The position numbers and the translations under genes are program-made. A stretch of 64,000 nt of DNA from Galerina marginata (Eukaryota; Basidiomycota; Agaricomycetes; Agaricales; Galerinaceae). A model generated the notes under the pieces. That model saw only the letters and a list, made by a program, of their open reading frames with translations. It made no database searches and was not told where the DNA came from. Shown here piece after piece: positions 15,497-35,528 of the stretch. The DNA is taken from positions 2,666,001 through 2,730,000 of the forward strand of contig JAECYW010000003.1 of NCBI GenBank assembly GCA_023014335.1, written 5' to 3'. Within the stretch, counting starts at the first letter, position 1. Each line of letters opens with the position of its first letter.

Positions 15497-16685
15497 ATGT
15501 CCGAGCCACTTTTAGAAGAGAATCCACGAAGGTTTGTGCTTTTCCCAATAAAATATCTGGCGGTGAGTCTACTGTACCAGAATCTCTAGTATAACTTAGT
15601 AACTTTCCGTTCAAGATCTGGAGGATGTACAAAAAAGCAGTCACCACGTTTTGGATAGCCGACACCGTCCAGACATCCGAAGACGCGCAGGAATGGAAAA
15701 ATGTACTTACCCACGCAGTGAAGCAGACGACCACATTCGGACTTAGTTTCCTGGCGGCGACCCACAAGGCCATGCACGAGAAACTTCTGAACGCAATATC
15801 CACTGAAGTCACGGCCCCCGAAGTACGATGCTTTCTCAGTTTCCAGACAATGACGTTAGTGAAGAGCATTTCTTCTTATTATCAGACTCTACTTACATAT
15901 ACCTAATCATTTCCCACTAGGGAGAATATACACTCCGAAGTACTTTCCAAATTCATGTCGCAGTTAATCGAAGATCAGGATAGGTCAACTTCCAAATTTC
16001 AACTACAGTCACTCGAGGAAAAGTTTCGATGGGCTTCTACTTGGACCGAACAGGATGATATATCCTTCGCCGAACGTTTGGTTGCATTGGCAGCCATCAA
16101 GGGACTTTTTTCTTCTTCTTTGTTCTGTGTACTCTCGTGGATTTCAGAACAAGACGTGCTCCGCAGTCTGAGCTTTACCAATTCTATGATTATACTTGAC
16201 AGCGAGTCACACGTGGATTTCGTATGCCTTCTATTCCATCACCTCGAAAAGAAGCCGTCGCAGGACCGCGTGTTTGAAATAGTTGCCGAGGCCGTGGATC
16301 TCGAAAAAGAGTTCGCAACCGGTAAGCATCAGCTATTTCCCAACTTCGCCATTCAATCCATACGATTTGACCAGATGTACTCCGGTGTATCAATATCGAC
16401 GTGACCCCGGAACAATTAAACGGATATGTCGAATTTCTCGCAGACATTTTATTGCGCTCCTTAGGCTATGAAAGCTATTACAAGGCTTCAAATCCCGTAA
16501 TTTATTTAGTATCTCATTGACTTGGACTCTACTAATCCCATCAACGAAAGATTTCCTTCATGCAACACCTAACGGGAGAGATTAAAGCCGGGTACATTGC
16601 TCAGCAGATGGAAACCGCTTATTCTCTCGGCAGTTCGAAGTCCATGAAGGGACTGGAGATCAGACCCCAGGTGTATGATTTGTGA
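15497..16685 (+). CDS. Ribonucleotide reductase R2-like pseudoenzyme, copy A
   Basis: Homologous along its length to the class I ribonucleotide reductase small subunit. Exons 15497-15562, 15616-15854, 15921-16321, then about 16375-16497 and 16552-16685 keep frame and give about 320 residues. The R2 landmarks are in order: EPLLEENPRRFVLFPIKY, IWRMYKKA, ENIHSE, DFVCLLFHHL, YVEFLADILL. By alignment to mouse R2, Glu170, His173 and His270 remain, but Asp139 is Gln, Glu233 is Lys (AAIKG) and Glu267 is Ser. The radical Tyr177 is Leu. The R1-binding tail (FTLDADF in animals) is replaced by a tail ending VYDL. The frame is clean, so it looks like an expressed pseudoenzyme and not a dead copy. A further intron at the GTGAGT overlapping the stop is possible but gave no good continuation. 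Confidence 0.85.
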
Positions 16686-16926
16686 GTTCGTTAAGTTCTC
16701 TTCTTTTGATTAAACCTCACAGGCACTAGTTTTAAAGATGATCTCGCCTAAAAAGAGGTGAAGATGATCTGCAAATAGTTACCCTTCGAGTGTCTAAATA
16801 ATGGTCCTGTATTCGATATTTTAAATAGCAGAACGAACTTTTATCCATATTTTCCTCCATTAAGAACTTATGCCCTGTTAACACCCGTCGGTGCATATGG
16901 CATGTGTGAAGTGAACACGGACAGAA

Positions 16927-18321
16927 CTGGTACCGGCAGATTATGATGTGCTACGCCTGACCAAAGATGACGACACGCGATATTTCGGGCCGGGGTACAT
17001 AAGCGCTTTAGGCATCACTTCAAGGCGACAATCAATTTTCCCAGAAGGGAACGGGAGTTTTGATCCCGGCTTCCCCTTTTTGGATGTATTCACGCATATC
17101 CAATCCACCCTTGGTAGGAGGCTAGAACGAGTTCGTCGCATCAGAAAAATCATTGGTACCTACCCAAGGGAAAAAAAAAAAAAAAAAAAAAACAGAAAAG
17201 TATACTGGTACAGATACCGATTCCCATGCTATTCTCTAGCAGAACGGTAGGCACTCATTGAATCGTTTATTGGCCCAGCTGTGGCAAACAAAAAAGGCTA
17301 GAAAATTCTCATGATCAAGTTCCAGATAACGAGCGGACAATCCATTTAAACCTCGAGTTGAGACAGTCGTCGCCCCCTCTGTGCAATCCCTTCGGTCTCA
17401 AATCACTTCTCGACATGAATTCGCGACCCGATGCCCAAGACGGCAGCCAAAAGACATGGCTGCTAGAGGTATATCCGTTTTCAAATACTTCGATTAAAGG
17501 CTCATGTGTTCCTCGTATTCTAGCACCCAGGCCTTGGAACAGCTTACATCGCCAATGAGGATACCATGAACTCACGCTCACTTCGCCTCATTTCGGATAA
17601 CATAGCTTCTGTCAGTGACATACCATTTAATTATTCCAGGGATCTCATCTTCATTTGACTACAGATTCATTCACGACGAACATTATGCCTGGCTTTTACG
17701 ACAGGCGGGTCTGTTGATTTTATACACCTCGCACCGTCCCAGTCCTCCAACGATGTCCTCGACGTCGCCCGTATCTTCCCGAACGGAGCATTAAGCGCAC
17801 GTATCACATGTGTCCCAGGGACGTCGTTTAAGCTGGAGGAAGATTATCGAATTATTGTTTCGAATGGAAACCCAAACGCCCCACCCAACGCCGCTGCCAG
17901 AATCCTTTTCGGCGTCAACTGGTCTGGTAACATTGTGATGGCCAAATACGGACAGTCGGGGGAGGCGGTGGACATTCCTTACGAAAGCACTACGTTCATA
18001 GTCATGCTACTGAAGTCGTAAGTATCGATTCGACATCTTTGGAAACGCGACTCAAGGAATTTCAGGTGGTTGATCAATATGCAAAATTTACGAACGGCAA
18101 TCGACCAGCGTGGGTAGTTAGCCTGAGATTCGTATTCTTAAATAGGCATTACCCATTACAGACATGTACCTAATGTATCTAGGCGAGGGTCTGGGAATCC
18201 ATCGCTTTACATTCACATGGAGTTCCACTACTTGGGAAAACAATATGATAGCACAGAGTTCAAAGAGTTCAAATCAGAGAATGAAACATTGTATAACTAT
18301 CGACCGCCTAAGCTGAACTAA
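16927..18321 (+). CDS. Unrecognised multi-exon gene downstream of R2 copy A (start not found)
   Basis: Not recognised. A chain of seven exons keeps frame at every junction: to 17155, 17201-17246, 17297-17468, 17524-17610, 17665-18017, 18066-18113 and 18183-18321 (stop TAA). The product has alternating polar/hydrophobic beta-like stretches such as RTIHLNLELRQ, ARILFGVNWSGNIVMAKYG and PSLYIHMEFHYLG. No signal peptide or membrane span was seen in the visible part. A TGA lies in frame just upstream of the first exon given, so at least one earlier exon is missing and the start is unknown. An intron holds a run of more than 20 A. It lies about 240 bp after R2 copy A on the same strand. Confidence 0.55.
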
Positions 18322-18411
18322 CGAACCCGATAAAGGAGGAGTCGTTTATATAATCTCCGGCCCAGCCAACTTTTAGCGAGCTGAACGTTTAGGACACCGG
18401 TAACTCCCTTG

Positions 18412-18742
18412 ATGGGATTATGTAAGTGTTCACTTTGGACTCCTTTGGGCAGTGTTCTTGTTGCGCTCATCCGAGTCACTCCGCACCTCTTCATTTTATT
18501 GGTACTCGCGTTCCAAGTGTTGTGTCTGGGTGCTTATAGTGAATGGAAGCATAGCAGCTGGGAGGCAAGGCACGAGGTATGTTTCTAGCACTATCTATAG
18601 AATTTCTGAGCTCCCAATTCGAGAAATGTCAAGGCGCGGGCCATTGCTGTGGCAGAAGGTTCGTTGCCCGTTCATCCTAACGAATTTTACCGATAGCTTA
18701 CAGTCCCTTTCTCACTCGGAAATCCCGAATTCACGTACGTGA
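18412..18742 (+). CDS. Possible small membrane protein
   Basis: Low confidence. An ATG at 18412 opens MGLCKCSLWTPLGS, followed by a hydrophobic stretch (HLFILLVLAFQVLCLGAY) that would form one membrane helix, then a charged segment (WKHSSWEARHE). A GTATGT donor follows at 18584. One in-frame joining (acceptor ending ctgag) reaches a stop at 18742 and gives about 100 residues. Other acceptors give early stops. It could also be part of a larger gene whose other exons I could not place. Confidence 0.3.
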
Positions 18743-20302
18743 CCATGTCAGACCCAACAATTACAATCCCTGCCACCTTCTTAGTGCTTTGGCAATCCGT
18801 CTTCATTGAGCCCCCACGACGTCAAAATCGCTTCAAGCTGAACCCGAGGCAGGATTAAAGTGAATTTTCCAGGTATGTAACATACCCTACGCTCCGCTAC
18901 TCCTTTAGCATGTAGGAATTCAGCTTTACCGTGAACGACTATGCAATTGCGTCATTGGTCAGGAAGCTGGCACTCCGCCGCTTCAGCAACCTCCCCCTGC
19001 CCCCGTCCTTGACTGTGTCACAACAACAACAAATCACCGTACCACGCATCGCGTCGACGACCCGGGAACCTACTTTATGAGCTGTACGCGCGTCACCCAG
19101 CAACCCCACTGGTCCAGCCCGATACGAGTACCGCTGCCGCTGACTCTCGTTTGAATGCAAGACGGTACGTGTATTCAATCGTTTTGCAATACGAACACAT
19201 GCCATGTGATTCTTCTTCGATCCCACTTCGCAATAGCGCTAATGACAATGCCTGGCGGTACGAACTGCAGCGCCATCACCATACCCTAAAGTAAGCCTCG
19301 TTATTATACTCTATCCAATGTTCTCCTTGTCTTATATCATTCAATATAATGCTTTAATCCTTTTACAGTGCAGATTTTGCAGACTGTCCAAACTTCATTC
19401 TTAGGCACTTCCCGCCTCATAGAATGCAGTCGTAATCAACTCCCTTAGCACAGCGAACAATGTCGGTCACGGACTAAACCTGTCTACTACACAACTTCGA
19501 TCGGAAGGTTAACAATCTAAACCCAGAATTGCTCGATCTACCACAACCTTTCCTCTTCTCCCCTTTCTCGTTCAGTTTCATGCGTTTCTTGAATATTTCT
19601 CCTCTATAGCCTCGTGCGATCACTAATTATATCCTCACTAATAACGGAACATTCTAAACTGAAGAACAACTCGAAGTCTCCAGCCACGATTTCTAAGTTT
19701 CAACCACCGTTGCGCTCTGGTCAGAGGTAGCCGAAATCAGATTAGATTGGAAAGATCAGACTTCAATCGGTATGTAGCACAACCCGTCTGAATGTAGACG
19801 CCGCAATCACTGGCGCGCGCCTGCTCGACGCGCTTCCTGAAACTTGCTAGACTTTAGCCGCCTGGATAGGTGTTGGGAGGTAAAAGAGAGAAAGTAAGGA
19901 AGACTTCTAAGAAACATCACATTGATTAGATCGAAGTTTGTCGAGACAATCTACACGTTCAACGTTCAACTCTAATATCCTCAAAGCGGTGTATGATTAA
20001 CTTCTATTGGCGTTCAGCCCGAGTCTAAAACATTGTTTGAATCTCGATGATCACACAATCTGAAGTAAATTCTGGTCTTGAAATAAACAAAGAAAAGAAG
20101 GCCGAACATGAGAAGAATATTCTAAACAATGTCACCATATCTCGGAAGGTCAACAGCATGATTCGTGACTATCAAAAGAACAGATATCGCATTGTCTATG
20201 TGCCGTGCCCGACTTTAACATCTCAAAAGATACGTTCCTCGGTAAATCTGTCACGTAGAGGTATCGGTTAATCACACCAGGCAGCGAGTGAGCGAATGAA
20301 AC
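18743..20302. other. Gene-free stretch
   Basis: No supported gene. Short frames such as the one at 20047-20271 (Lys/Asn-rich) have no recognisable domain or splice partners. A run of CAA repeats lies near 19021. Confidence 0.4.
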
Positions 20303-21521
20303 TTACATATCGTATATCAAAGGTTTAAACACCCCACTTGCATACTCTTCATCGTCGATGGAGTAAGCTGTCCTCATCTCAAAAGCAATTCTCTTGGCCC
20401 TCTCCTCTCCAGGTAGACAATGAAAATAATGAATCTGCGTTATGTTGCCGTAAATCATAGGAAATACGAATCATTTTTTTTCAAAAACTCATACTAAGAA
20501 CGTCCCAGACGGCTGCGGAGAATCGTAAAACCTCCGATATCCCATCGACGACAGAATTGTATCCGCCGTGAATTCGGTATACTGATGAATCGTATCCAAT
20601 TGCATGTCCAACGAGCAGACGGACATCATATCTGTGCAGTAATCCAAGTCAGTACGTAATAAAATGAAGCTCCCAATCCATCTTTAGGCGTACCCGTCGC
20701 AAACGCTCTCTCTAGGTCAACCGCTTCCGTTATAATATCCATGGCGCGTTCTTCCGATGGCTTCGTCTGTAAATGATGCACTAGAAGGGCAACAAACTCG
20801 ACATGGGAGTCATTGTCGCTCTTGATAAGTGTATGTGCATATTCCAAGCCCTCTAATAAGCCTTGTTCTGAGATCCATGAAAGCATGCACGAGACTGAAG
20901 AAAGGAAAACTCCTTTAATTGCTGCAAGCGCAATGAGAAGATCTCCGAATGGCACGTCCGGGTTTCTCGACCACTTAGACGACCAGATGGCCTTTGTTGC
21001 CAAAGCTTTCAATCCAGTTTCGTAAATGAAAGGCCAGGATCTATCGACATCTCCGGTGACGAAGCTTGACAATAACTTAGATATTGCCTCCGCGTGGATA
21101 TTCTCCCTGAAAGTAGTGCGTCAAACTTATTAACGGTGAAATAGATGCAGAAGACATACATTATACATTGGAAATCGAAAAAATAACGGGCTTCAGGAGC
21201 CGCAATCTCACAGGCGACATTGTTCAGCACGGCATGATGCAGCCGGTTAGTCTCTCCCAGGAATAAAAGACAAAATAAAATATTCAGCCTCTCGTCCTCC
21301 GTCAACGCGGCCCAGTCGTCGGTATCCCCTGACAGTTTAAGGCAGTCAGCTATCCAAAACTTCTTCATCGACCTCTTGTAGGCCCTCCATATCTACCAAT
21401 ATTTTAGCGGCTAAGCAATGACAACAGGAGAAAACCACTCTACCGCTGGGTATCTGATGGGGAAGAGGGAAACGATCCTATCGTCGAACAATATAGACTC
21501 CACCGAACCGTCGTGGTCCAT
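20303..21521 (-). CDS. Ribonucleotide reductase R2-like pseudoenzyme, copy B
   Basis: Second R2-like gene, on the minus strand. Exons 21444-21521, 21160-21392, 20704-21106, one near 20510-20640 and a last one ending at 20303 keep frame. The landmarks FPIRYPA|IWRAYKRS, ENIHAE and YTEFTADTILSSMGY identify the fold, and all four introns fall at the same places as in copy A. Against mouse R2, Glu170, His173 and His270 are kept, Asp139 is Lys, Glu233 is Lys (AAIKG), Glu267 is Asn and the radical Tyr177 is Ile. The C-terminus (MRTAYS...KPLIYDM) matches the copy A tail and not the normal R2 tail. The start is the ATG at 21521, which opens MDHDGSVESILFDD; an upstream exon cannot be excluded. No stops or frameshifts were seen. 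Confidence 0.85.
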
Positions 21522-21966
21522 CTCACTCTTGCTGCAAACCAAAACAGAGAGATTAAGATATGCTTACAACTCTTGAAGGAGGAGGAAGAGCGCATCGTTT
21601 TTCTTAACGTTGCGCCATTAAGTACTCGACTCATACGAATGAGATTAATCTCGATGGATAGGTCGCGCGTCAGGTTTTCAAATACATGTCAACAGGACGA
21701 CTTTGGCTCTATTGACACTTTCCCCATTGGGCGGTCACTGAGATCTTGAACACACTTCAGAAGAAACTCGCAGAACGAACGGTCGGCCATCATGATTTAT
21801 CACAATAAATTAATCAACATTTCAAGGCGAACTACCTAACCGCTACAATTGGTTTCTAAATGCTTTGATTATCGCCGCTAACCGATTTCTGGCACGGGTT
21901 AACTTTTGGATTACCTCGTCTACATAACAGAGTTTGATTAATGGAGCAGCAGGCACCGGATACAAC

Positions 21967-23132
21967 TCACATACGTCGCAATGGCTTGATTACTCTGAGC
22001 TTAGAACCAGCGCTACATCCTTCCTGTGGTACTTGAATTACTTTAAACGGAGCAGAGAGGTACTTTCGCTCCTCGTGAACTCGATCAGAGTCTTGAGGGT
22101 CTATTGTTGTGAAATGGAATGTTAATCGGGAATAAAGAGATCAGGTTGGATACTCACCTGCCAACGGTATCTTCCAACAAAATTGATCCTTAGTACTTCG
22201 CTTCCTACAAAAATCTTCCAGTTTGTACGAATCCGTTTCGACATCGACGAGTTTAAAACCTCGAGCTTCGTATTTCGTCATCCAGACGGGTTTAGACGAG
22301 CCGTTAGGTTGATCCCGAAGAATATAAGACTTCCTCTCTATGAAAGTGGCTTTCGGAAAGAGCGAAACTGCCGTAGTAGCGGATATATAATTGAGGACGG
22401 CGGCTATCCGGATCGACCGGTCAAAATATGTAATGGAACTCCAGCGAAGAAACACTCACTAGAATGGAATTCGTTCAAAAGATGATATATAGGAGCGACC
22501 TCTACCCCGATGATCTGCACTTTTCTAACGCGAAGGTTTCCATCCCATAGCGTTTCCGTCTTGGTAAAGTTCATAATAATCGTAATAGCGCTGCGCTTGG
22601 AGCGCCTTGGCGGTTGCGACATAGGAGAAGGCTGGGATTTTGAAACAGTATCACGAGCTTTCGAGGACATATAGCGCAGGATAGCCTCCTTGACATCCTT
22701 GCGAGCACCTCCGCCAACGAGCTCATATCCCTCATTTCTAACCCAGGCAGCTATACATTTCACTTGAGAATGATGCGAATATATGTCCATGTCACTTTCA
22801 GGGTAATTTGTCCGGTCGAAAAATTGTAAGGCCTGTGATCCGGAAATTATTGCATGGCACTGATGTAGCAAATCCTGAAAGCCACTTGGATCGGAAAACC
22901 ACGGTCGGAATCGCACTTCAAAGCTCCACGCGCGTGCCATATAGAACCTAGCGCAAAGTCTGGTTGTCCAGGAAGCCTTGGACATGGCCAAAAGTTGTTC
23001 GAGCGAACAAAAGGAGAGTATGCGAAGGATGAGATGATCAGGCATGCATAATATGGATGTGAAAAAAGAATTGTCGAGGGGGGCGTGCATCGGATGAGCG
23101 GTAAGGAAAAAATTCGTTCTGCACAAGTACAT
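21967..23132 (-). CDS. F-box protein with nucleotidyltransferase-like domain
   Basis: A gene type repeated in agaric genomes. The first exon (about 22461-23132) encodes an F-box near residues 30-65 (MPDHLILRILSFCSLEQL), then a nucleotidyltransferase-like fold with a GS motif and paired acidic residues (ISGSQALQFFDRTNYPESDMDIY). Exon 2 joins with HSTAVLNYISATTAVSLFP. A last exon from about 22080 ends at TGA 21967 (KPLRRM). The GS...DxD pattern is typical of minimal nucleotidyltransferases, but whether it is catalytic is unknown. Either MYLC at 23132 or a Met about 15 codons later could be the start. It is divergent from the gene at 23584, with a direct repeat between them. Confidence 0.65.
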
Positions 23133-23230
23133 TTAATATTTCAGGCACTACGCTCAAGATGACAGTACCAGATTGAAACTGAAGCGAACTGTACTCGATC
23201 GACTTGACGTCATTGTATCACGTTATTGAC

Positions 23231-23403
23231 CCATGTAAATCAGATCTTCGCATAATGTAGCAAGTTGATTGGTTGTGTTCCCATAGATAAAATTAGCTTT
23301 TTCTGTCCTCACCAACCCACGTGAATCAGAACATCGCATAATGTAGCGGTTTGATTGCTCGTGTTACCGTCCTGTGGATAAAAGTAGTCTTTTCTTCCCT
23401 CCC
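23231..23403. repeat. Two-copy direct repeat of about 86 bp in a divergent promoter
   Basis: Two adjacent imperfect copies start at 23231 (ccatgtaaatcag) and 23317 (ccacgtgaatcag). Both contain the identical core tcgcataatgtagc followed by a gttgatt/tttgatt stretch and end in gataaaa and a pyrimidine-rich tract. They sit between two divergently transcribed genes, so they may carry shared regulatory sites. Confidence 0.6.
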
Positions 23404-23583
23404 CGTTCCATGGACGACATCTCACGTTCAAGTAGGGAAAACAGACTCGATTTCCGCAGAAGAGAGCTTGCATTTTCAAGTGCTATAAAAACAGGTCGAG
23501 TTCCGTCGTTTGGATCCCGACTCCCGCCTCGACTCTTCGTAAACTTGATCCGTATCCACTTTGACGTTCGCCTTCACACCAAT

Positions 23584-24890
23584 ATGTCACACACACAAGA
23601 GATACTAGATCTCGTTAGCGAATGGCAAGGAAAACGCTTCCGGGAGAATGAGATAACTCTCACCGATGCCGTAGCATCACTTGAATCAGATGACCCCCTT
23701 GTCGAGGTGGCTCCTGGCGTCTCCAATTCGCGCTGGATAGTAAGGATATTTTATTATTTACTGCTATTACTAATATAAATTATCTTTTACGATTTTTTTT
23801 TTTTTTCCGTACAGTTATACACCAAGGACACTAAGAAAGTGGCCGTACTCGTTCATGCCGGAATTTGGCAATGGAAATGCGATCTGGAAACGGGAAATTA
23901 CGTGCCAGAAGGTTTCGAGGCACCGGAAGGCCTTCCAGAGAACCGAATGTAAGCTCTGTATTACCCTTGAATATTTTGATCTCAATTTCTCCGTGAACTA
24001 GCCAAGACACCCCTTCGTACAAGTGCGAGTTTTCGTACGCATTTGACACGACCGTAGACAGCTCCATCTGGGACTACTTACAGGTAAATGCATATCATTC
24101 CGTCACGAGCCGTATTTACGAATTGTCAGGTCTTGGAAGACCACGTTAGCGCACAGCCAGGATTTAACAAAGGGAAACGAAATCGAAAAGCTTGGCAAAA
24201 TGGTAAAGTTGCCTCAGCTCGACAAAAGTATGTCGTCCCGGCCAAGGTATTTACCAGACGAACGCCGTACAACACTAAAGAAGGCGGAGAGTTTGATGTA
24301 CCTTACGATTTGCATCCATGGATACAGCATGCCATGGAGAATCAAGCCGACACACTTCAAATTCCGAATCCCGACAGGCCTAGATACTACGACGCTACTG
24401 GCGGTGTATTAAAGAAGTTAGAAGATACTAATAATCCCACTTTTGAACGAAACGACATAGTGTGGATGTCTTGCAAGATAGGGTTTTCTGTTGCCCGGGA
24501 CGGATGGACATCGGAAATCATACCGATCGAACTTATACGCGTGGGTAAGGTCCCGGAACACCTCAACTCAAAATCCGACCCGGCAATGTACCCCCCTCAT
24601 GACGAAACCCTTCCATCCCTTGAAGCTGGAGGGCCTATTACTTTTATAGACGGTGAGTCACTTCTGATGCTCGGAACACAACGTTAACCAGGATACCAGG
24701 GCCCTCCAGGCCATTGAAGCGACCGTCGGAGGAGATACCAGACAGGATCCTGGGTCCGAACAAGAGACAGGCGATAGAGGTTGACTTCGACATGGTTGAT
24801 CAAGAAGAAGACGTTCCTCAGGAAGTTACGACTAGGAATGTAGGCAATGTTAAGACTCGAGGCAAGGGAAACAAAGAGAATAAATGCTGA
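23584..24890 (+). CDS. Conserved-looking hypothetical protein
   Basis: Not recognised by name. Five exons (23584-23739, 23815-23948, 24002-24083, 24130-24652, 24700-24890) add up to 1086 bp and a clean 361-residue frame. The N-terminus (MSHTQEILDLVSEWQGKRF) is helical. The middle is rich in aromatic residues and Pro (DLHPWIQHAMENQ, NDIVWMSCKIGFSVARDGW). The C-terminus has a basic cluster (RPLKRPSEE, NKRQAIEVD) and a Lys/Asn-rich end, suggesting a nuclear protein. An ATG further upstream at 23374 lies in the same frame but precedes a stretch unlike coding sequence. The exon chain strongly supports a real gene; the function is unknown. Confidence 0.6.
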
Positions 24891-25437
24891 GATCGTGGGG
24901 TATATTCTAACTTACTTACTATCTTCCCCCACCCCCCTCTCATTACCAGCAAACTCGACCACCGTGTCCCTCACACCACCTATGAAAGATAATGACTGTA
25001 ACCCATCGGACATACACGACTTTCCGCGTTTTGACGAGTTGTAAATATGTAGTCGATTTCTCATGTAAATTTTCCAGCATAACATAAAATGTTTGTCATT
25101 GAATTCTCCCTATCAACCTGAGCCAGCAATGGTACAGTATAATTGACCGAATCGCAACCGAATTCCCCTACCAAGACCAGAACACGGGGAAATGTCGCCT
25201 AAGGTAGAAAGTCGGTCACATTTCAATCAAACAAGTATAAACCTCATTATTTGGCCGTATTTTGGACTCGATGAATCGAAGTATCTATCGGCTATCTGGG
25301 TATCTCACAAGTCAATCAATCTAGCAAGTCGACGAGTTATTTAACCCACAAGGTACCCCTTTGAACGCGCAAAGTGGACTCCGCGATAGTCTGGAGGAAC
25401 TTTCCTTCCAGAATTACCACAGCATCTTGAATAAAAA

Positions 25438-26803
25438 ATGAACAACTCTTCAGACACAGTTTTACTCGACACCAGACGAGAACGTGCACCGTTCCTCGTA
25501 AAACACCAAGCAGTTGAGTAATTCGGTCAGATTATTGATAAACGATCCTAAATACCTCATATCAAAAGATCTGGAAAGCTTACAAGGAGTCCATGAATAC
25601 ATTTTGGATGGCAGATACTTTAGATACATTTGTCGACGTCGAAGATTGGAATAATACTCTCATGGACGAGGAGAAACAGAGCATAACCCTCGCACTCAGT
25701 TTCCTCTACAAGACTCGCACACTTCACGAAAAACTTTTCGTTGTTGTCTCAGATAAGGTTCCTATACCCGAAGCGCGTTTCTTTTTCGACTTTCAATCCA
25801 TGATGTGGGGGTCAAAGTTCTACGATGTCCGCGTCCGTGGAAAGGCTGAAGCATTTCTGACAGGGAAAGGACTACACACACTGAAGCGCTTTCCAAGTTC
25901 GCTTCAAGCCTCGTCGCTAACGATAACGACCATACCATGGCATTGGCACATGTAACAGGGTCCAGGTCTCTACAGAGGAAGGTCGATTGGTCGTCTGTAT
26001 GGTTGGACAAGCATGAGGTACCGTTGGCTGAACTGGTAATTGCGCTCGCCGCAGTGCATGGTCTTTTTACGGCCTCTATCTCCTGCATACTTTCGTCAAT
26101 CATAATAGACGGGCTTCTTATTGGTTTAGACAACGCCTATTCTCAAATCAAGTTCGATAACGAAACATATCTTGACTTCGTTTGCCTACTCTTCCATCAC
26201 TTAAAGAAAAAGCCTTCGGAGGAGCATGCATGGGCCATCGTAGTAGAAGCTGTCGACCTCGAGAAGGCATTTGCGAACGGTAAGTACTAAGTCCCATTGA
26301 ATTGTCCACATTTACATTTAAGTCTATCGAAGAAATCTTATCTGCCTTTTCAATATACTTAGTCGAGATAAAAAGGACTACCCTCAATCAATATATCGAA
26401 TTTATCGGTGACATGATCCTGTCTTCGATGGGATACAGAAAACACTATCACTCATCAAATCCTGTAAGTCTCCCTATTGAAATCTCAACTCAGTGCTTAA
26501 TATCTTCGCAAGTTCTCTTGGATGCATCACTCACCGGGGGACGTGAAAGCGACATTATTTTCTCAGGAGATGATATCATGTCCTCGTACATTATCCACCA
26601 GATCTGACAGCATTGGCATCCACCCCAGAATCCTTGATATGTGCGCTAAATTTGCACTAAGTATGCAGATAACTCACACTCCCACAGATTTGCAAACCTT
26701 CGTATTTCTGATATTCGATATACTTGAGCGTAGTGTACTGGTTTTAATCAACGAATACGAACATTTACTCTGGTATCACTCGAGAAGCAAGCCGACCCTA
26801 TAA
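25438..26803 (+). CDS. Ribonucleotide reductase R2-like pseudoenzyme, copy C, with extended C-terminus
   Basis: Third R2-like gene. Exons 25438-25512, 25569-25820, about 25878-26280, 26327-26462 and from 26513 onward keep frame, with introns at the sites used in A and B. Landmarks: IWKAYKESMNTFWMAD, DFVCLLFHHLKKKPSEE, YIEFIGDMILSSMGY. Against mouse R2, Asp139 is kept, the ENIHSE box is altered to ERTTHTE (one residue longer), Glu233 is His (AAVHG), Glu267 is Asn, His270 is Tyr and the radical Tyr177 is Leu. Where A and B stop after YDL/YDM, this copy reads ILDM followed by TGC, so the frame continues 53 more residues to a stop at 26803. A downstream intron could shorten that tail. Confidence 0.8.
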
Positions 26804-27857
26804 TACGAATGCCTATCAAGACGCATTATATGACGAAGGGTACGGACCTACTCTCTGATCTCTGTTTAATAAATCTACTAGTCCGACGAATGTATATACT
26901 GTGCTAGCCAAATCTGGTGAAGCGGTTGTTTTAATCTAATTGCAGAACCCTAAGCGCGTTCAAAAAGCGCCCATTGAACATTCACCCGTATCTACGCTTT
27001 TTGACAGGCGGGAAGATAACGCTTTGATTCGAAGTCGTTGAGAACGACAACTATTACAATCCTAGAACTCTCGCCAAAACGGATTACTGCGCAATACTCT
27101 CTGCATAACTCTGATACTGTTCCTGTGTTCACCGCACTTGTCGATAAACTACGCCCTTTATGGTTCCCCAAAGCGGGTACTTTTTTGGGCGCAACTCCCA
27201 CGAGAAAATTATATAAGCGGTAACACATTCTCACCTTCCGACTTGGCTGAAAACCGGTTCACGGTTCAACGTTCAACGGAGGGCATACTTTATCTTCCTT
27301 CTTCAAATCTTCCCGCCGCCGGTCCTGGACCTAGGCCCTCCTACGAAACTCGTAACGGCGATGGCCATGGCCATGGCCATCAAACCGCCCATCATGCATC
27401 GTCCCAACACCACCCCACCCTCCCTCCCAATTTCGACATATATCGCATCCCTCCAAGTCCCAAGAGGCTCGCCGCCTGTCCGGCGCTACCCAGCTCGCGC
27501 GATATTAATTCGAGCAACAGCGGAGGGACTTCGAAGAGCAACACATGCTGGTGGATGAGCGAGAGATGAGGATGGCTCGTGCGTCTTGAGCGCGACTTTG
27601 ACGATGTTTAGGTATGTTCCTAGTAAGAATGCGATCGAGCGTGCGGGTGGATATTAGGCTAGGGTGTGGGTTGGTATTTGGGATGCAGGGGGGTGGGGAA
27701 GGTTATGGGCGCTCATCAAGTTAGTAGGCACATCGGGCGAAGGCAATCCGTCGTCGTCGTCGTCGTCGACTTTGGCTTCATTATCGCTGTTGCAACAATC
27801 ATTATCCCTTCCTTTTCCATTCTCGGTACGTTTTCGTTCATTTTCGTTTTGTCGATA

Positions 27858-28035
27858 CAGTCGACTCCCTCATAACCCATACCTCCCGCGAGCCATACTC
27901 TCCCATTCCCCATGATTTTGGACGGCTACCAAAACACTATTTTACACCAAAAGTGCTCCCTCATAACCCATAACCTATCATAATCCATAGTCTGTACCGT
28001 CCACCGAAGGGTATGGATTATGAGAGAGTCGACTG
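27858..28035. mobile_element. MITE with TA target-site duplication (Tc1/mariner-like)
   Basis: A 178-bp element. It begins cagtcgactccctcataacc at 27858 and ends in the inverted copy (gagagtcgactg) at 28035, with about 23 of 25 terminal positions matching. TA flanks both sides (27856-27857 and 28036-28037), the duplication typical of Tc1/mariner/pogo transposons. The interior has no coding potential and repeats the ccctcataacccata motif. Non-autonomous; no matching transposase is in the window. Confidence 0.8.
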
Positions 28036-28343
28036 TAGTAATGAATTATTCTCTTTTTCTGCATCGCTTCGTTGTTTTCATCATTTCTATTAGGTTCGTT
28101 GTCTTTCCTCTCTCCTCCTACATCGTCCGTTTTGCTACTCGATGCAGAAGCTTTATCCTGCGACCATCAAAACCAACATAAACCTCCGTCTCTCTCCTCA
28201 AGTAATTATTTCGTCTCTAGTCAATCAATCTCAACCTACATCCAAATGTATCAATTGTTTTTTATTTCCCTCAATCCACTTTGTATCCCCTCCTCTCCTC
28301 ACATACGGACAATCATTTCCAAATTTTTTTTAATTTTTTTTCA

Positions 28344-28393
28344 TTTGCCTGACCAACTTCCCATTCCCTGGAATGGGAAGTTGGTCAGGCAAA
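28344..28393. repeat. Perfect 24-bp inverted repeat with 2-nt spacer
   Basis: The 24 bases at 28344-28367 (starting tttgcctgaccaactt) are followed after two bases by their exact reverse complement at 28370-28393. The transcript would form a 24-bp hairpin without mismatches. It lies just after a T-rich stretch and within no gene I can support. Confidence 0.9.
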
Positions 28394-28942
28394 CGAGATC
28401 AAATCACACGTCCATGCGTCCACCGTCATCCCCGCACCGCATCATCGCCACCATCATCAACACGCATGCCAAAATTGGAACGTGAACGGATATGTATCAC
28501 GAAGAACACGAACACAAGCCTACCCACCTCGTAGATATATATAGTTTGTATACGCTCTGCCTATTGATTTATTTATCTATCTAACTTATTGTATATCGCT
28601 ATTCTACCTTCACAACATACAGTCTACATAAATTTTTAACATCGAAGCGGTGTTAAATATTCGTTCTCACATTCTCCAATTGCCACACGCGTCCCATGTG
28701 CTCGTTACACCACCACGTAGCAGAATCTACTCCTATGATCGAGTGTATTCATCCGTTCTATCCGTTTTAGTAGAGATCGCAAGGAAATCCCACTGTGAGA
28801 TAACAGCACCATCATTTTTAAAGATTCTCGTGGAGCGCAACTTCAAGTTCGCAAACCTGAATTGCAGATCACGTCCAATTTAAAGAAAATACGGAATTTT
28901 TCGCAAGAAACAATATGCATATTACTACTACCGAAAGCCTAC

Positions 28943-30268
28943 TTACTCTCGTGCATAGAAGAACGGATGCCTAATGAGATCTATGAGCCTAACTCTTCCG
29001 CGACGGTCTAAATTGACCATGGATTCTAAAAGATCGAGAGCATCTTCATCCACGATCAACCCCTAATAAAATTGGGCACGTATTACATTTAGAGTTACAA
29101 GCGACTCACTCTCAAAGGAAGTACCGAATCCGCGTAATCTCGTACTTCTCTGGAAACTCTCGAGTCTCTTTCTGGGAAGTCCGAATTTGAATATTTAAAT
29201 ATTCCGGGATAGGAACGACGAATATCTTTGATCAAAGCGTCGGGAAAAGGCCCGAGAACCGCGTCGAAAGCAATCGATTTCTCTCTTCGATATATAGGGC
29301 CCGGTTTGCAAGCGGGGAACAGAGGTCGACCTTCCAGGACCTCAAAGATTACACAACCGATGGAAAAGATATCACTAAATTCTCTGATGCGCATATCTAT
29401 GCCCTGGTGTTTCAACGGCAGATGATATACAGAGGAAAACCTGCAGACACACCATAAACAATTTCCGGAGAACGGTACTGATCGGTACCCATCCGGCTAC
29501 TATCCTCGACACCCCCAACGCGCCCATAGAACACGATTCGGAGTCGGGTGGACATGAGAACATTCTGACCCTTGTAAGCTGAGGGAATCTCAATGCAGAG
29601 AGAACCGCCGTACCCGAGACAAAAAAGAGCCGCTGTTATCAAGCCACAGTTCTGATACGGTCTCCGTGTCCATCATCTCAATATTCTCGGGACATATATC
29701 CGTATGAGTGACAAATTCAGCATGAAGGTCTGATAATGTATAATAAAAATACGTCCTTTACGCTGATAAAAGAGGACCACTTACCACAAACAATGTGAAC
29801 GAGCTGATGCCCAATTTCCCGTGCATGGCGCTTCGAAATATACAATCCAGAATCAGAAAGAACGTCCTTGAGTGTTCTCTTGGGTGCATTAAAAGCAAGA
29901 TAAAAATAAAGAAAATCTCTCGTTTCTTCCAAGAATTCGGAGTGCCTTGTAATTGCAAGGAGGCTCGATCAGAAAAAAAAAAAAACCTCCGACGAAACGA
30001 AATTTGCTACTATTTACCTTCCATCATCCGTTCGTGGATGCTTTAGCCAGTGAACTTCTTTCAAGACCTCATGATCGGTCACTTGCGAGCGATTCAAAAC
30101 ACGGACAACTCTCGGACTTCCTACACTTCTGTCGCTTACATCCAACAATTGGAAGTGCTTTCCTTCTCTTATGACTCGTTTCACAATATCTGAAAGAAGA
30201 AATGGTCATGTAGCCACAACGGTAAGCGAGTGATGCCTTACACCTGCCCGAGAGAAAGTCCCCAACAT
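28943..30268 (-). CDS. CMGC-like protein kinase, probably catalytically degenerate (kinase 1)
   Basis: Protein kinase fold most like the SRPK/CLK group. The start at 30268 (MLGTFSRA|DIVKRVIREGKHF) leads through an N-lobe without a clear glycine loop. Then come a catalytic loop reading HTDICPENI (Lys of HxDxKPEN replaced by Cys), an activation segment in which the DFG position reads FYG, and a good P+1 region (GTDQYRSPEIVY). Helix F is SDIFSIGCVIFEVL. The last exon, ending at 28943, contains the C-lobe RHPFF end. Introns are short and in phase. Loss of the loop Lys and the DFG Asp argues for a pseudokinase. It is divergent from kinase 2, with 450 bp between the starts. Confidence 0.75.
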
Positions 30269-30717
30269 CGAATCTCGTTTATAGATAAAATTAGATTTGC
30301 TTCACGGCGAGAAACAAAACACGAACCTCGGGGGTGCACATACCGACCACAACGGTTGTGGCATGATACACAAAGAGTCGGACAGAAAATAAAAAGTGAA
30401 ACGAATGATGAAATTTTGAATTTTAAGAAAGACCAAAAAGACTATCTCTCCCTTTTTAACATATCTGACCAGATTCAAAGTCCTGAGTCGAATGAAGCCG
30501 CTTCAATATGCTTTTCGACTCTCACGGAACGCAAAGCGCAGGTAAACATTAACACACTCACCGCCCATTTTCGGACTCCAAAGACATCCACACGATCCCA
30601 AATAAATGTATACAACTCACCGCATGATCTTGTTGCCCACTCTCAGATACTCTCAGATAAAATCACGCCAAAGATGCACAGTCTCAGCGACACATATTTC
30701 CTGTTCCTTTCTCTTTG

Positions 30718-32172
30718 ATGGGCGGACAACCTCCCGAGCCAGTTACCGAGGGTTCAGAGCGTGCAGCGTAAGCGCTTCCCAAATTCGGGACTCATTAAAT
30801 TTTCTAAATTATACAGAACCGCCAGGCCGCTGTATCTTCAGACCAACGAAGCTATCCACCCTGACTGTAAGAATACGCAGAATAATCGCACAAGTCGACT
30901 ACCACGCCTTATTCGTTCTCAGATAAATTATTAGAGTACATAGCGTCCGGTGCATCTGGCCAAGTATGGTCCGCCGAAGATGAATCAACAGGAAATGTAA
31001 TTGCGATAAAATTCATGTACGCGATTGGACAGAGCACGCGAGCATGTCGCGCCCGTTACATGACGGAGCTACTCCGAATGTCGCCTTCTCCTGACACAAG
31101 GTAAATCAATACTTTTCGATTCCTCCATCTGCCACTTAAATCACGGCAGTATTTTCGCTGAAGTTATTGGAAGTACTAGCCACTTGCGACACCAATGCTT
31201 GATTTTTCAACTATACGGCATGACACTCCGAAACCTCTTGAACCGACCCAAGATGCTACCATTGCCTTCGCACCAGAGCCGCGCAATAGTTTGGCAGCTA
31301 GTCAAAGGAATAGCATGTAAGTCTGCCTGATCCAAGTTACAGACGATTTCCTGACCTAGCAACAAGTCCTCCACAGTATCGATGTCGTTCACACTGACCT
31401 GAAACCGGAAAACATCGTGTTAGTAGACGATACGACAACTCATATTCAGGATATCGACTCCAATGGAAAGTTCTACGACAAGGTCAGATTTCCTCCACTC
31501 TTCCAATGTCAAGGTTAAACCCACGACAGTGCGTTCTCCGGAGATTTGAGATCAAGATCATTGACCTGGAAGACTCTCGTTCTAACCCCCGACAACTGGG
31601 CTATATTTCTGGAACTCAAGGATATCGCGCGCCTGAAATGTATACCGGTAAACCCGAAATATTGTCTACATTGGTCAATATTAATCTGTATTCGATAGCC
31701 GCGGGATGGAGTTTCCCCATTGACGTTTTCGCTCTCGGGTGCATCACTTTTGAATTGTACACTGGAGCGCAGTTGCTCCCAAAGACAAACAACATCCGCG
31801 AATACTTCTTCTCCATCGAAAGAATTATTGGAAAGTTTACCACAAGTTTCGCAAATGATATTCGCCGTCATCACGCGGGTATCTTCTCCCTCAGGAAAAA
31901 AAAACCCATGATCCAGGATTCACAGTCCAGGAATAGAATCAGGCGTCATATCAGAAGATTTGTTTCTATTTCACGCGAACAATGGGTAATAACGTCTTAT
32001 AAAACTGCGGATTAATAACTAATCAACCGCGTACTAGCGCTCGATCTCCAAACCTGTTGTTGAAGAATTTATCAGATTATGTACTGTTCCAGACCCTCGT
32101 AAACGTATATCTGCAGAATATGCTTTAAAAGATAAAATGTTCGATACATTCTCATATGTACAAGACTCATAA
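30718..32172 (+). CDS. CMGC-like protein kinase (kinase 2)
   Basis: Exons 30718-30767, 30817-30866, 30923-31100, 31150-31316, 31367-31482, 31530 onward and a last one ending at 32172 keep frame. The glycine loop (GASGQVWSAEDE) and the ATP-binding Lys (VIAIKFM) are intact. So are the catalytic loop (VVHTDLKPENIV) and the substrate-binding APE region (GTQGYRAPEMYT). The metal-binding DFG is changed to DLE (KIIDLEDS), keeping the Asp. Helix F is PIDVFALGCITFEL and the C-lobe ends in DPRKRISAEYALK. HTD rather than HRD places it near the SRPK/CLK kinases. Activity is possible. The substrate is unknown. Its 3' end lies 14 bp from the next, convergent gene. Confidence 0.8.
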
Positions 32173-32185
32173 TCAAATGCAACCT

Positions 32186-32626
32186 TTATTTTCTAACGTA
32201 AAGCCTGAATGGAGTGGGTGAAACATCATCGACGATATAGACCTGCCGCTTTTTTCGGCTAACAAATTTCTTTTGCGCCTTGTATCCCACAAAGTTCTTA
32301 TCAGACGCAAAACCTCGAAGACGCGAATCAACCTCGTGGGGACCTATCCCGATCTCCTGCACAACTTGTCGAGCTAGGTACAATTAAATGACAACTCAGC
32401 TACTCTGTGTCGCCGAATCAGTGTTGAAACTCACGCGATGGCTGCCGACCACACTCTCTGAGCGACGCTTGGATCCTTCTAAAACGTCCTCCACAGGCGC
32501 AACCATTTTCTACGCCGACTGAACCCGAATCTAGATCGCGATATTTGAACGTAGCACCTAAATTAGAAAGACCAACTAAAAAAGAAAGAGAAAAAAAAAA
32601 AAAAACTAACGTCCAATATCAGCCAT
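32186..32626 (-). CDS. Small basic protein of unknown function
   Basis: Three exons: a start at 32626 (MADIG), a second exon to about 32434, and a last exon ending at 32186. Joined in frame they encode about 120 residues (ATFKYRDLDSGSVG...CACGG...RQVVQEIGIGPHEVDSRLRG) and end in a basic stretch (KKFVSRKKRQVYIVDD). No signal peptide or membrane segment; not recognised. The 5' exon is joined across an intron with a poly-A/T run and is the least certain part. Convergent with kinase 2. Confidence 0.45.
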
Positions 32627-33021
32627 TGCAACAGGACGAGGCAAAACAATTCTCCCGTCCTTCCTTCTCGGGAAAAGAATACAAGACGGAAAGCAGACGG
32701 AGGCTCCCCTACGTTCCGGATTTCCAGCGTCTTCAACACCGTGAAGAGAATTAAAAGTGTCCATGGGATGAAAGTCGAAAACAACAACTCCGTTAAGTCA
32801 ACACAATGGTTTGAGAGAGTCATTCAACCGTCCTAATTATTTGGAAGCAATGTAAGCGCCATCAGATTAAGAAGTATTCCATATGGACACGGGTAGTACC
32901 GAGTAATACAACAACCGAGACGAGAAACCATCCTGTGGCAACCGGATTAGACTGTCGAGAAATAATTATAAAAACCCTCAGACAGAATACCAACCCAAAC
33001 CCTACTCATCCACCCAACGAC

Positions 33022-33469
33022 ATGTACACGTAGGTGCTCACCGCCTTCAACCACTCCCGTTTCACTAAACTGTAATTCCAGTCGTCCACTCCACTCGTTC
33101 CGGCTGCTCAAGGTCGATGAAGTCGATACACAGACACAGCAAGACATAATCCTACTGACGCGACTCGCCAATAACTCGAAAGTTGACATCACGATTCATA
33201 ATTCCCTGAACCGTCACCTCCCAGTATGTTTGCGCTAATGATTCTCACGTCTTTCTATACTGATCGCCCAAAGGCCGTTAACATAACCCAAATATTCCAA
33301 AACCGCAGTCACGGAGCTCATAAAGAACGCGGAAACACCCCAGACGCCATGCCAAATTTCACGGTCTATGACATGCCTTCTATGGTAAATGGTATCAGCA
33401 ACACCCCTGACGATGATTAACCCGACAATTTCCAGGAGAATCAAGACGTCCACGACCACCAAGCCGTAG
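33022..33469 (+). CDS. Small hypothetical protein
   Basis: Low to moderate support. A TATA-like sequence (attataaaaa) lies near 32967, and an ATG at 33022 opens MYT. A 50-bp intron leads to RPLHSFRLLKVDEVDTQ and a polar helical stretch (QQDIILLTRLANNSKVD). Two further exons can be joined, but the third junction allows two frames (ending KTSTTTKP or QAVDRVE), so the C-terminus and the end are uncertain. About 85-100 residues. Not recognised. Confidence 0.35.
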
Positions 33470-34356
33470 ATAGAGTTGAGTAACCACCTGTTTCCACTAC
33501 GTCATTAGAAACTCACGCATGATCGGATAGAATAATTCGGTTGCCGGCCAACCCGAGGATCTCTCTACTGCGCGTCCGGAATACTACCGCGAGCATTGCT
33601 TCCCACCAAAAACTATCAATTACCCACGACCCTCCAACCAAGCAAACACCCAAACTGCTGCACCGGACCAAGACAACGTTTTCGGCGCTTTGTCGACATT
33701 TCACTCACACGTTTTTGGCCGTGGTACGACGCCTTCGCTCGACTTACAAGGTAAGGTATATGCCACTTTATAAGCTGAAGGGAACTAATCCCTACTAAAA
33801 ATCAAGCTAAGCCGATGATTCACGCCATGTAAAAACCACGGGCCTGCAGAAAGCTCCTATCTAACGCGCAGATGAGAAGTGTCGATTAGGTAATACATGC
33901 TCGTGGGTCGACGCGTATTTTATTTGCAGTTGTAAATGTTCCTGGAATAAGTACCATGTTTGATAAAGTTACTCGTATTTTGATTCGAATCTTATTTCTT
34001 ATGGGAAATTAGCCACCCAATTTCCCGTCTTTGTTGATTATTTGACTCGGCTTCTCACTCCTGATAATTCTCAGACATAGAAAGTATACAGGGGCCGACG
34101 CCTGTACGCGTCCCGAATTCAAATCATCACATGACAGGCGGACTCACGCAAACATCAGTAAAGAAAAGTGGCGAGCCCGACTGATTATTTTTAGCTCGTT
34201 TCAAATCCAGATCGCCTGATGCGAAATCTCAAAAGCGGTTTGCTACCCTTTGTTCTTGTTATATCATCTCAAAGCAGTAAATATACGAGATCGAGTAGCT
34301 AAAAATCACTATTTAACCCTTTCACTCTAAGCCTGCGCATCCCAGTACAATCGTAA

Positions 34357-35528
34357 ATGGAAGGACTTAGAAATTTAGAACCCTTATTGACTGAAGAAAA
34401 TGGGCGAAAGAACGCGATGTTCCCAATAAAATTTGATGGGGTTAATTATCCATTATACCAACGTCAGTTTTATGCTAAATCGTCGCTAATAAAGATCTGG
34501 AGACTTTACAAAATGCTCATGAAGTCAATTTGGATTTCTGATACACTCAAGATGTCCTCGGACATCAAGCAATGGAATAACAACCTCACCGAAGAAGAAA
34601 AACATACAACATCCCTTGCGCTCCATTTTTTCTGGAGGACTCACAGCCTTCATCAGGCGACTCTGCATACCGTTGCAAATATCGTTACCGTACAAGAAGT
34701 CCAATGCTTTATCGGATTACAGTCAGTGATGTAGGTCCTTGACGTCGACCATTGCAGGCACAAAGGACTAATACTTAAAAGGGATAATATTCACTCGGAA
34801 ACGATATCAAAATTCGCATACAATTTCATATATGACGAGGCCGGCACGGGAGGTGCGTGGACGTCCTTCTATATCAATACGTCGAAGGCACTACAAGACA
34901 AAGTTGAATGGTCGTCATTTCCATCCGCTAATTCCAACAAGGATATTTCACATCTTCTTATCCGACTAGCCGCTATCAAGTGTATATTTTCAATATCGGC
35001 TACATGTATTCTCTCTTGGACGGAAGAACAAGGCCTGTTATGTGATCTGGATCACGGACTGACGAGGATTAGATGGAACGACGAGTTGTTTTTCGACTTT
35101 GTTTGCCTCTTATTCCATCATATTCGAAACAGGCCATCACCGGACCTCGTCAGAAATATAGTAACTGAAGCCGTTGACATTGAGAAGGCATTCGCTTCCG
35201 GTAAACAAAATATTTCATCAAATTATCAAGAAACCTGGTCTAACCAATTCTTAGACATTTTCTCAATTTGCTTCATTGACATAACACTCGAATCGATACA
35301 CCATTATATCGAATTTATGGGCGATTTGCTACTTTCTTCACTAGGATATAACAAATATTACAATGCCGCCAAACCAGTAAGCACATTGACATGCTACTGA
35401 GTCGCGTGGGCTGACAAAACCTCGAGACGGCTTCAAATAGATTATACCTCAGACACCAAGTTGATGGGGATGTAAAAGCAATAATTTTAGCGCAAGAGGC
35501 GAGTATAACTACAACAGATATTTTTTGA
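34357..35528 (+). pseudogene. Ribonucleotide reductase R2-like gene, copy D, frameshifted near 3' end
   Basis: Fourth R2-like copy. The start at 34357 opens MEGLRNLEPLLTEENGRKN, close to the normal R2 N-terminus. Landmarks: FPIKFDG|IWRLYKML, DNIHSE, DFVCLLFHHIRNRPS and YIEFMGDLLLSSLGY. Introns match the other copies. Against mouse R2, Asp139 is Lys, Glu170 is Asp, His173 is kept, Glu233 is Lys (AAIKC), Glu267 is Asp, His270 is Phe and the radical Tyr177 is Ile. The last exon, after 35378, matches the tail of copy A (GDVKAIILAQ) only when read one base out of phase. With standard splicing the protein stops about 7 codons into it. Either it is decaying or the tail has changed. Confidence 0.75.

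Follow-up and report, generated by a model that had tools for sequence, protein, structure and literature searches.

Ligand-poor R2-like ribonucleotide reductase genes as core genes of a giant Helitron2-type transposon lineage in Galerina marginata

The window analysed here is a stretch of 64,000 nucleotides from Galerina marginata (contig JAECYW010000003.1, positions 2,666,001 to 2,730,000; hereafter C23). It contains a giant Helitron2-type transposon of 36.4 kb, which carries a RepHel gene, four genes similar to the R2 subunit of ribonucleotide reductase (RNR) and several other genes:

2133..38570, minus strand: giant Helitron2-type element, 36,438 bp, 99.2-99.3% identical to C5:1701794-1738405
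2133..2173, no strand: terminus whose inverted repeat, GCCTGGACT, lies 29 nt in from the end (asymmetric terminal inverted repeat)
3281..4144, plus strand: variable cargo gene of unknown function, with strong matches at the C23, C5, C26, C4 and C29 elements and also at sites where no R2-like gene lies
6080..7273, plus strand: core gene with an F-box-like match (0.035, below the Pfam cut-off)
9044..14887, minus strand: RepHel, 1947 aa, with Helitron_like_N, DUF6570 and PIF1 helicase matches (Pfam 2.5e-32, 3.1e-24 and 1.6e-21)
15497..16685, plus strand: R2-like gene A, five exons, divergent to RepHel, tail ...QVYDL; omega 0.15 against its C26 copy
20303..21521, minus strand: R2-like gene B, five exons, tail ...LIYDM; omega 0.12
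21970..23132, minus strand: F-box gene, a core gene of the element family (PF00646, 6.3e-5, above the cut-off)
23583..24887, plus strand: core gene of unknown function
25438..26641 or beyond, plus strand: R2-like gene C, in which the ILDM tail end is followed by a lost stop and the frame reads on; omega 0.15
28946..30190, minus strand: exons of a protein-kinase-like gene (weak Pkinase match, 0.0041, below the cut-off), conserved with C26
30886..32171, plus strand: exons of a protein-kinase-like gene (weak Pkinase match, 2.2e-6, below the cut-off), conserved with C26
34357..35528, plus strand: R2-like gene D, shortened tail ...TDIF; omega 0.21
38549..38570, no strand: terminal hairpin CCTGGACTTTAGAGTCCAGG followed by CA

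The orientation of the element is set by RepHel, which places its 5' end, with the TGCCTGGACT hairpin, at 38570. When up to two mismatches are allowed, the hairpin pattern has 19 matches genome-wide and its reversed control has none. The window element and its C5 copy share identical sharp ends in unrelated flanks, and a diverged relative of 39 kb on contig C26 has similar termini, with a 12-bp repeat 30 nt inside its end. The asymmetric terminal inverted repeat (9-12 bp, 29-30 nt inside one end) with a hairpin at the opposite end fits the Helitron2 subgroup. The element also shows the precise ends at unrelated sites that characterize Helitrons, no target-site duplication being seen when the flanks of the three insertions (C23, C5 and C26) were compared by eye, as well as a RepHel with HUH Rep and PIF1-type helicase domains (PF14214, PF05970, an HxH motif at residue 809, a candidate paired Tyr near 997 and a Walker A motif near 1484). 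A haplotype artefact was rejected as the source of the C5 copy: the window has a lyase gene that occurs once in the genome, and each canonical R2 was likewise found once, which suggests that the C5 copy is a true second insertion. R1, found twice in the genome with 96% identity, speaks against a real second insertion. The sequence-only reading had assigned the R2-like genes to a host accessory cluster, and several clustered copies on one contig would indeed suit a host-owned set of R2 pseudoenzymes. Yet the RepHel, the terminal hairpin and the sharp-ended 99.2% copy in unrelated flanks make host ownership barely conceivable: the genes ride on a 36-kb Helitron with a near-identical copy elsewhere in the genome.

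Spliced alignment identifies genes A to D as R2 homologues at the four positions first proposed, with scores of 480-573, against a background of 22-30 for ten random window stretches outside the element. All four frames are clean, which had been claimed for A, B and C and extends to D, but the stop codon still present in the C26 relative of gene C is missing from gene C itself. PF00268 is the sole Pfam match in the 12 models scanned (A-D included) out of 16 R2-like genes in the genome, and the 60 matches listed by a PDB sequence search are all RNR entries by name. By sequence, the proteins thus belong to the class I R2 fold family; a better fit to another ferritin-like family, named beforehand as a possible refutation, appeared in neither search. 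Their residues at the diagnostic R2 positions D84/E115/H118/Y122/E204/E238/H241 (E. coli numbering) are the following:

Gene A: H-E-H-L-K-S-H
Gene B: N-E-H-I-K-N-H
Gene C: gap-E-H-L-H-N-Y
Gene D: H-D-H-I-K-D-F

As originally described, Leu or Ile occupies the place of the radical tyrosine, the VEG glutamate has become Lys, Lys, His and Lys in A to D, and several diiron ligands are missing from each gene; realignment did not restore them. The same degeneration extends well beyond the window. The "four-copy family" was right for this stretch and far too small for the genome, where 16 distinct R2-like genes (20 when the C5 copies are counted) occur at 10 loci, with four genes in the window element and in its C5 copy and five in the C26 relative. 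Each of the 16 keeps 1-3 of the six diiron ligands: D84 and E238 are found in none and E204 in one, being replaced by Lys in 12. The radical tyrosine is absent throughout (Leu in 8, Ile in 7, Phe in 1). The E204K change prompted a comparison with the metal-free class Ie R2, which was ruled out by the loss of the active-site Tyr in all 16. Judging by these residues, the R2-like protein would be unable to hold the canonical diiron-tyrosyl cofactor. Residues of the radical path are kept (W48 and H118 in 16/16, D237 in 15/16), a retention that may serve folding alone.

The host R2 is encoded by two separate genes on contig C1, both with all ligands; no Helitron_like_N match was found within 240 kb of them. 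Introns at positions 8 and 224 are common to these genes and the R2-like family, while two others, in phase 2 at alignment position 86 and in phase 0 after position 264, are present in all 16 R2-like genes and absent from both host genes. In the phylogeny, the 16 R2-like rows lie opposite 20 canonical rows across a 100/100 branch, long branches included. No degenerate relative was found in other species among the 238 distinct R2 proteins listed (from the best 120 of 969 and best 120 of 180 matches), all of which have full ligands. In Psilocybe cf. subviscida, much as here, a protein related to RepHel (44% identity over 78%) and an additional R2 carry successive locus tags, from which their adjacency is deduced (D9619_001300 / D9619_001301; P0219, P0355). 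Unlike the R2-like family, this extra R2 has all ligands and groups with canonical R2s, and it may therefore represent a separate capture.

The R2-like genes are closely associated with one RepHel lineage. The linkage survey, in which 24 of 184 RepHel candidates were scored, gave ten near-full-length RepHels with 60-100% identity to that of the window, and their loci are the ten R2-like loci; apart from an array on contig C9, the remaining RepHels match it at 29-38% per aligned piece. At nine of the ten loci the two genes stand side by side and divergent, with gaps of 655-2162 bp from match to match. Rep-domain and R2 identities are correlated over nine loci (Mantel r 0.73, p 0.0018; C5 omitted as a near-duplicate, and the R2 nearest Rep taken per locus). 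Other genes follow the same distribution. The F-box gene has matches at all 10 R2-like loci, in three C9 array units and, weakly, at four places elsewhere, the core gene at 23583..24887 at all 10 loci and C9 only, and that at 6080..7273 either at each of the 10 loci or no more than about 25 kb away, at C9 and in other places. The main exon of the second of these has no match in Pfam, NCBIfam or PDB, and its fold predicted without an alignment has a mean pLDDT of 31.5, too low to use. The C4 RepHel has one in-frame stop. The C9 tandem array has RepHel relatives and other core genes; no R2-like gene was detected there by a PF00268 genome scan, and the 2.75 kb upstream of one copy scores as background. 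R2 thus seems dispensable at C9, although the RepHel there is in two pieces. A scan of IMG/VR with RepHel found no relative.

Helitrons are known for the capture of gene fragments, and the R2-like genes could be such passengers, taken from the host and now decaying. Damage is apparent in two of the 16 (exon 1 of C23_2889 contains a stop, the last exon of that gene having two candidate readings by eye, and C26_309 lacks the expected start), and C and C4 have lost the usual stop. Nevertheless, omega is 0.12-0.21 at dS 0.94-1.19 in the four R2-like gene pairs between elements, the only testable ones (C23 and C5 differ by too few changes for an estimate), which points to purifying selection in these pairs; RepHel gives 0.08 between the window element and C26. 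Decay was ruled out on these omega values. Since the gene also accompanies each of the 10 near-full-length RepHels with 60% identity or more, and the introns are identical across the family, the passenger scenario is very improbable. The RepHel linkage at ten loci, the common introns, the single group in the tree and the purifying selection make the R2-like gene a core gene of a Helitron lineage, normally divergent to RepHel.

The ligand table and the omega values also support the role other than R2 catalysis first suggested for these genes, and several scenarios may explain what that role is. The R2-like models end in [DEN][FLM] in 12/16 cases, as compared with about 3% expected by composition; C and C4 have such an end just before the lost stop, D and C26_309 are without it, and 224 of the 238 canonical R2s listed end in DF or EF. 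Such retention of the C-terminus points to a non-catalytic partner or a decoy for the host RNR, the mechanism being something that we infer. The R2-like protein would act as a non-catalytic R2, its tail docking on host R1 and/or the protein pairing with host R2, and, while replicating as a rolling circle, the element would thereby tune the local activity of RNR and the supply of dNTPs. We give this reading, drawn from sequence comparison, a little better than an even chance. Alternatively, the protein could be an inhibitory decoy that occupies R1 or poisons R2 dimers, so that host dNTPs fall or S phase stalls to the benefit of the element. A decoy would fit the tail ends kept in 12/16 although the cofactor is gone, and also the fact that the C23, C5 and C26 elements each have several copies that diverge from one another; but reduced dNTPs would starve the element's own replication too, and D and C26_309 have degenerate tails. 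We regard the decoy as unlikely. An activating or targeting role, of the Rnr4 kind, is slightly favored over inhibition.

The family has a new consensus of its own: besides E204K (12/16), there is L to K at column 96 (12/16), G to S at 156 (14/16) and N to Y at 255 (16/16), and a basic residue at 204 is combined with an acidic one at 239 in 13/16. The substitutions at 204 and 239 could just as well be the sign of an entirely new function. This would be the case if the R2 fold had been reused as a scaffold outside RNR, for instance in aiding RepHel or countering silencing, with the new residues filling the metal site. Every R2-like locus found adjoins a related RepHel, as a scaffold would have it, yet the retained C-termini and the W48/D237/H118 set are not predicted by such a reuse, which we find doubtful. 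Under the preferred reading of a non-catalytic R2 acting on RNR, selection on a catalytically dead gene suggests that the element may use it to influence the host DNA precursor supply. Large DNA viruses command dNTP supply with whole RNR genes. A tentative extension, somewhat on the improbable side, is that this Helitron lineage made a captured R2 into a dedicated, cofactor-free RNR controller paired with its own F-box protein: the former would dock on R1/R2, the latter would steer the turnover of RNR or its inhibitors, and the element would thereby control the dNTPs needed for its own replication. In the family to which this 36-kb fungal element belongs, five or more genes have stayed common to the copies even where RepHel identity has fallen to about 60%, and among these genes is an RNR pseudoenzyme on which purifying selection seems to act; should its connection with RNR hold, this would be a transposon manipulating nucleotide supply.

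According to a 2019 review, fungal Helitrons reach 14 kb and those of maize 39 kb, and capture of full-length host genes is exceptionally rare (PMC6431247). A literature search judged by titles and abstract openings found no Helitron with a ribonucleotide reductase gene. Helitron2 and the FoHelis of Fusarium share with the window element the RepHel and an asymmetric terminal inverted repeat with a hairpin, and FoHeli3-5 also the TGCCT start and 5' hairpin; FoHelis are, however, about 5-11 kb long as against 36.4 kb, FoHeli3-5 end in CTCCTGT where the window element has another end, and several accessory genes and R2-like genes set the latter apart (PMC5148889). HELPO elements of Pleurotus ostreatus are likewise mushroom Helitrons with extra genes beside RepHel, although much shorter (HELPO1 1.5-13.7 kb, HELPO2 3.9-10 kb), and the text searched has no word starting with ribonucle, reductase or F-box (PMC4289320). 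Fungal DNA transposons that carry TET/JBP, Helitrons among them, are an earlier case of elements in which the gene of a host-type enzyme is a regular accessory; their enzyme is a dioxygenase, with a proposed role against silencing, and not an inactive RNR subunit as in the window element (PMC12730594). The class Ie R2 also has three glutamate ligands replaced, one by Lys, but needs its active-site Tyr as DOPA, where the R2-like genes have Leu, Ile or Phe in 16/16 (PMC11846895). Yeast Rnr4 is likewise an R2 paralogue that lacks iron ligands, three in its case, and it supports its partner; Rnr4 is a host gene, whereas the R2-like genes, with 1-3 of 6 ligands each, are carried by a transposon (PMC2704937).

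The sequence-only reading had placed four homologues of the class I ribonucleotide reductase (RNR) small subunit R2, here called A to D, in this window, and spliced alignment with a purpose-written script recovered all four at the positions claimed, with introns and with neither frameshifts nor stops. Their alignment scores were 480-573 vs 22-30 for ten stretches picked at random from the part of the window not covered by the element that carries them.

R2-like genes of the window, modelled by spliced alignment
15497-16685, + strand: R2-like gene A
20303-21521, - strand: R2-like gene B
start at 25438, + strand: R2-like gene C
34357-35528, + strand: R2-like gene D

The proposed family membership also holds, PF00268 being the sole Pfam match in all 12 models scanned out of the 16 distinct models found genome-wide, and the losses of diiron ligands in A-D are as described there. 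In a PDB sequence search, the closest solved structures to the R2-like proteins are eukaryotic R2 chains, and yeast Rnr4 (1jk0_B) is also among the matches.

These four genes lie inside a transposon. Positions 2133-38570 match C5:1701794-1738405, on another contig of the same genome, at 99.2-99.3% identity; the match stops abruptly at both ends, the flanks are unrelated, and an insertion of ~130 bp at the position of window 19907 is present in the C5 copy and absent from that of the window. A third relative, inverted and ~39.2 kb long, lies on contig C26 (about 72-82% identity over the longer aligned pieces) and ends in a similar hairpin and asymmetric inverted repeat. The window copy encodes a Rep-helicase protein (RepHel) with HxH and paired-tyrosine candidate motifs:

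9044-14887, - strand: RepHel open reading frame (Helitron_like_N 2.5e-32, DUF6570 3.1e-24, PIF1 1.6e-21)

Read in the direction of RepHel, the element starts with TGCCTGGACT, within a hairpin, and at its other end a repeat lies 29 nt before the terminus. It is thus a mobile element. The C26 element carries one more R2-like gene, its fifth, located at C26:335229-336175 (L017) on RepHel's far side; a counterpart of this gene was not found in a scan of window 1-39000.

The linkage between R2-like genes and RepHel is conserved across the family. Scanning the genome with PF00268 revealed a head-to-head pair of full-ligand R2 genes on C1, along with ligand-poor R2 genes at ten loci: C23 (the contig of the window element, three places), C5, C26, C29, C1, C34, C4 and C14. 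When the window RepHel was used as the query, the 24 of 184 candidates that were scored included ten near-full-length copies (60-100% identity), all located at the loci just listed; one in-frame stop interrupts the copy on C4, and the match on C14 is split into two pieces. At nine of the ten loci the R2-like gene starts 655-2162 bp from the RepHel start (match to match) on the opposite strand, and at the C1 locus it lies on the same strand, 5.5 kb downstream. Besides these copies and those of C9, the remaining RepHels scored reach 29-38% per piece. Each of the Helitron_like_N matches found in the genome (at least 120) is more than 240 kb away from the two canonical R2 genes. The two genes are co-inherited: the identities of the Rep domains and of the R2-like proteins are correlated over nine loci (Mantel r 0.73, p 0.0018; C5 omitted as a near-duplicate).

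The R2-like family has a single origin. Introns are shared at alignment positions 8 (13/13 models covering the site), 86 (16/16) and 224/225 (16/16), and all 16 models have a further phase-0 intron after position 264, with donor and acceptor in frame and a length of 49-67 nt; its donor lies 3-15 nt further on in B and in the members C29 and C26_322. In the two host R2 genes, introns are limited to positions 8 and 224, and the coding sequence continues past 264. In the sole tree built, to be read with caution since five family rows are long branches, a 100/100 branch separates all 16 family rows from 20 canonical ones. The genes are also under purifying selection, as the dN/dS check proposed in the sequence-only reading revealed: comparing the C23 element with that of C26 gives an omega of 0.15 for A, 0.12 for B, 0.15 for C and 0.21 for D, and 0.08 for RepHel. 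The 7 synonymous and 8 non-synonymous changes separating C23 from C5 across the four genes are too few to judge, and dS is saturated in the C29/C4 pair.

The distribution of the neighbouring genes over the loci indicates that the element combines five or more core genes, including the R2-like ones, with variable cargo; conservation with C26 extends to two kinase-like genes.

Other genes of the window element
21970-23132: F-box gene, with relatives at 10/10 loci and on C9, and four weak matches elsewhere
23583-24887: core gene, with relatives at 10/10 loci and on C9 (main exon predicted with a low-confidence fold, mean pLDDT 31.5)
6080-7273: core gene, with relatives on C9, at other places, and either at or up to ~25 kb from each of the ten loci
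3281-4144: variable cargo gene

A related Helitron forms a tandem array at C9:460774-526251, with a period of about 23 kb. Its RepHel relatives (59-62% identity; fragments 52% and 70%) are split into two pieces, separated by about 5.7 kb, wherever both are seen, and it retains the F-box gene and the relative of the 23583-24887 gene. The PF00268 genome scan found no R2-like gene there, and the 2.75 kb upstream of one C9 copy gave a background score in R2 spliced alignment. The terminal hairpin also occurs at C43:3034009 and at C20:676846, in both cases ~0.6 kb away from a relative (42% identity) of the window 6080-6892 gene; these sites are possibly smaller relatives of the element. C40:2186781-2187626 is 88% identical to the cargo gene, with another RepHel match ~7 kb away.

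The cofactor site has been lost throughout the family. In E. coli numbering, the diiron ligands are kept in 0 (D84), 9 (E115), 16 (H118), 1 (E204), 0 (E238) and 6 (H241) of the 16 genes, with at most three of six per gene, and none retains the radical tyrosine Y122. Instead of Glu, position 204 holds Lys in 12 genes and His in 2; an acidic residue (Glu or Asp) follows position 238 in 14, and 13 genes combine a basic 204 with an acidic 239, a pairing that may form a salt bridge where the metals used to be bound. W48 (16/16), H118 (16/16) and D237 (15/16), by E. coli numbering the start of the radical path, are conserved despite a mean retention of 46% over the 114 columns at least 98% conserved among 238 canonical R2s. 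The C-termini also resemble those of R2: 12 of the 16 models end in [DEN][FLM] (YDL, YDM, QDL, SDF, VNF, YEL, LDM, IEL, EDF, YDF), C and C4 have the motif followed directly by a lost stop, and D and C26_309 are without it. Composition predicts such an end by chance in about 3% per gene, and 224 of the 238 canonical R2s end in DF or EF. The last exons were initially picked by eye, in-frame joining then being confirmed for 16/16. A herpesvirus R2 tail ends in Asp-Leu. We infer that the R2-like protein binds host RNR. Most likely, it would work as a cofactor-free R2, pairing with host R1 (the large subunit) or R2 and shifting RNR activity to serve the replication of the element; the main rival explanations are that it acts as an inhibitory decoy or that its role has nothing to do with RNR. 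Since cyclin F, an F-box protein, acts on mammalian R2, the R2-like gene and the adjacent core F-box gene might, by analogy, constitute a joint module.

Concerning the host genes, R2a (C1:1890279-1891109, L009) has a one-base frame shift in its second exon, which could be an assembly error, and is about 92% identical to that of Panaeolus cyanescens, the highest among the proteins compared, which makes the host look like an Agaricomycete. R1 occurs in two copies, C2:1706388-1708173 and C4:745632-747407 (96% over 2.3 kb of DNA), in contrast to another window gene, which is single-copy.

Among the best 120 of 158 matches, RepHel relatives occur in Gymnopilus dilepis (58% identity), Psilocybe, Trametes and other Agaricomycetes. 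In Psilocybe cf. subviscida, the R2 D9619_001301 has a locus tag consecutive to that of the RepHel D9619_001300; this R2 carries the complete ligand set and clusters with the canonical R2s in the tree. All 238 R2 homologues listed are full-ligand, and therefore no ligand-poor R2 from outside this genome is found among the matches listed. As for the element itself, PMC5148889 describes the Helitron2 arrangement in Fusarium elements, one group of which likewise starts with TGCCT, and the terminal arrangement given there is the same as that of the window element.
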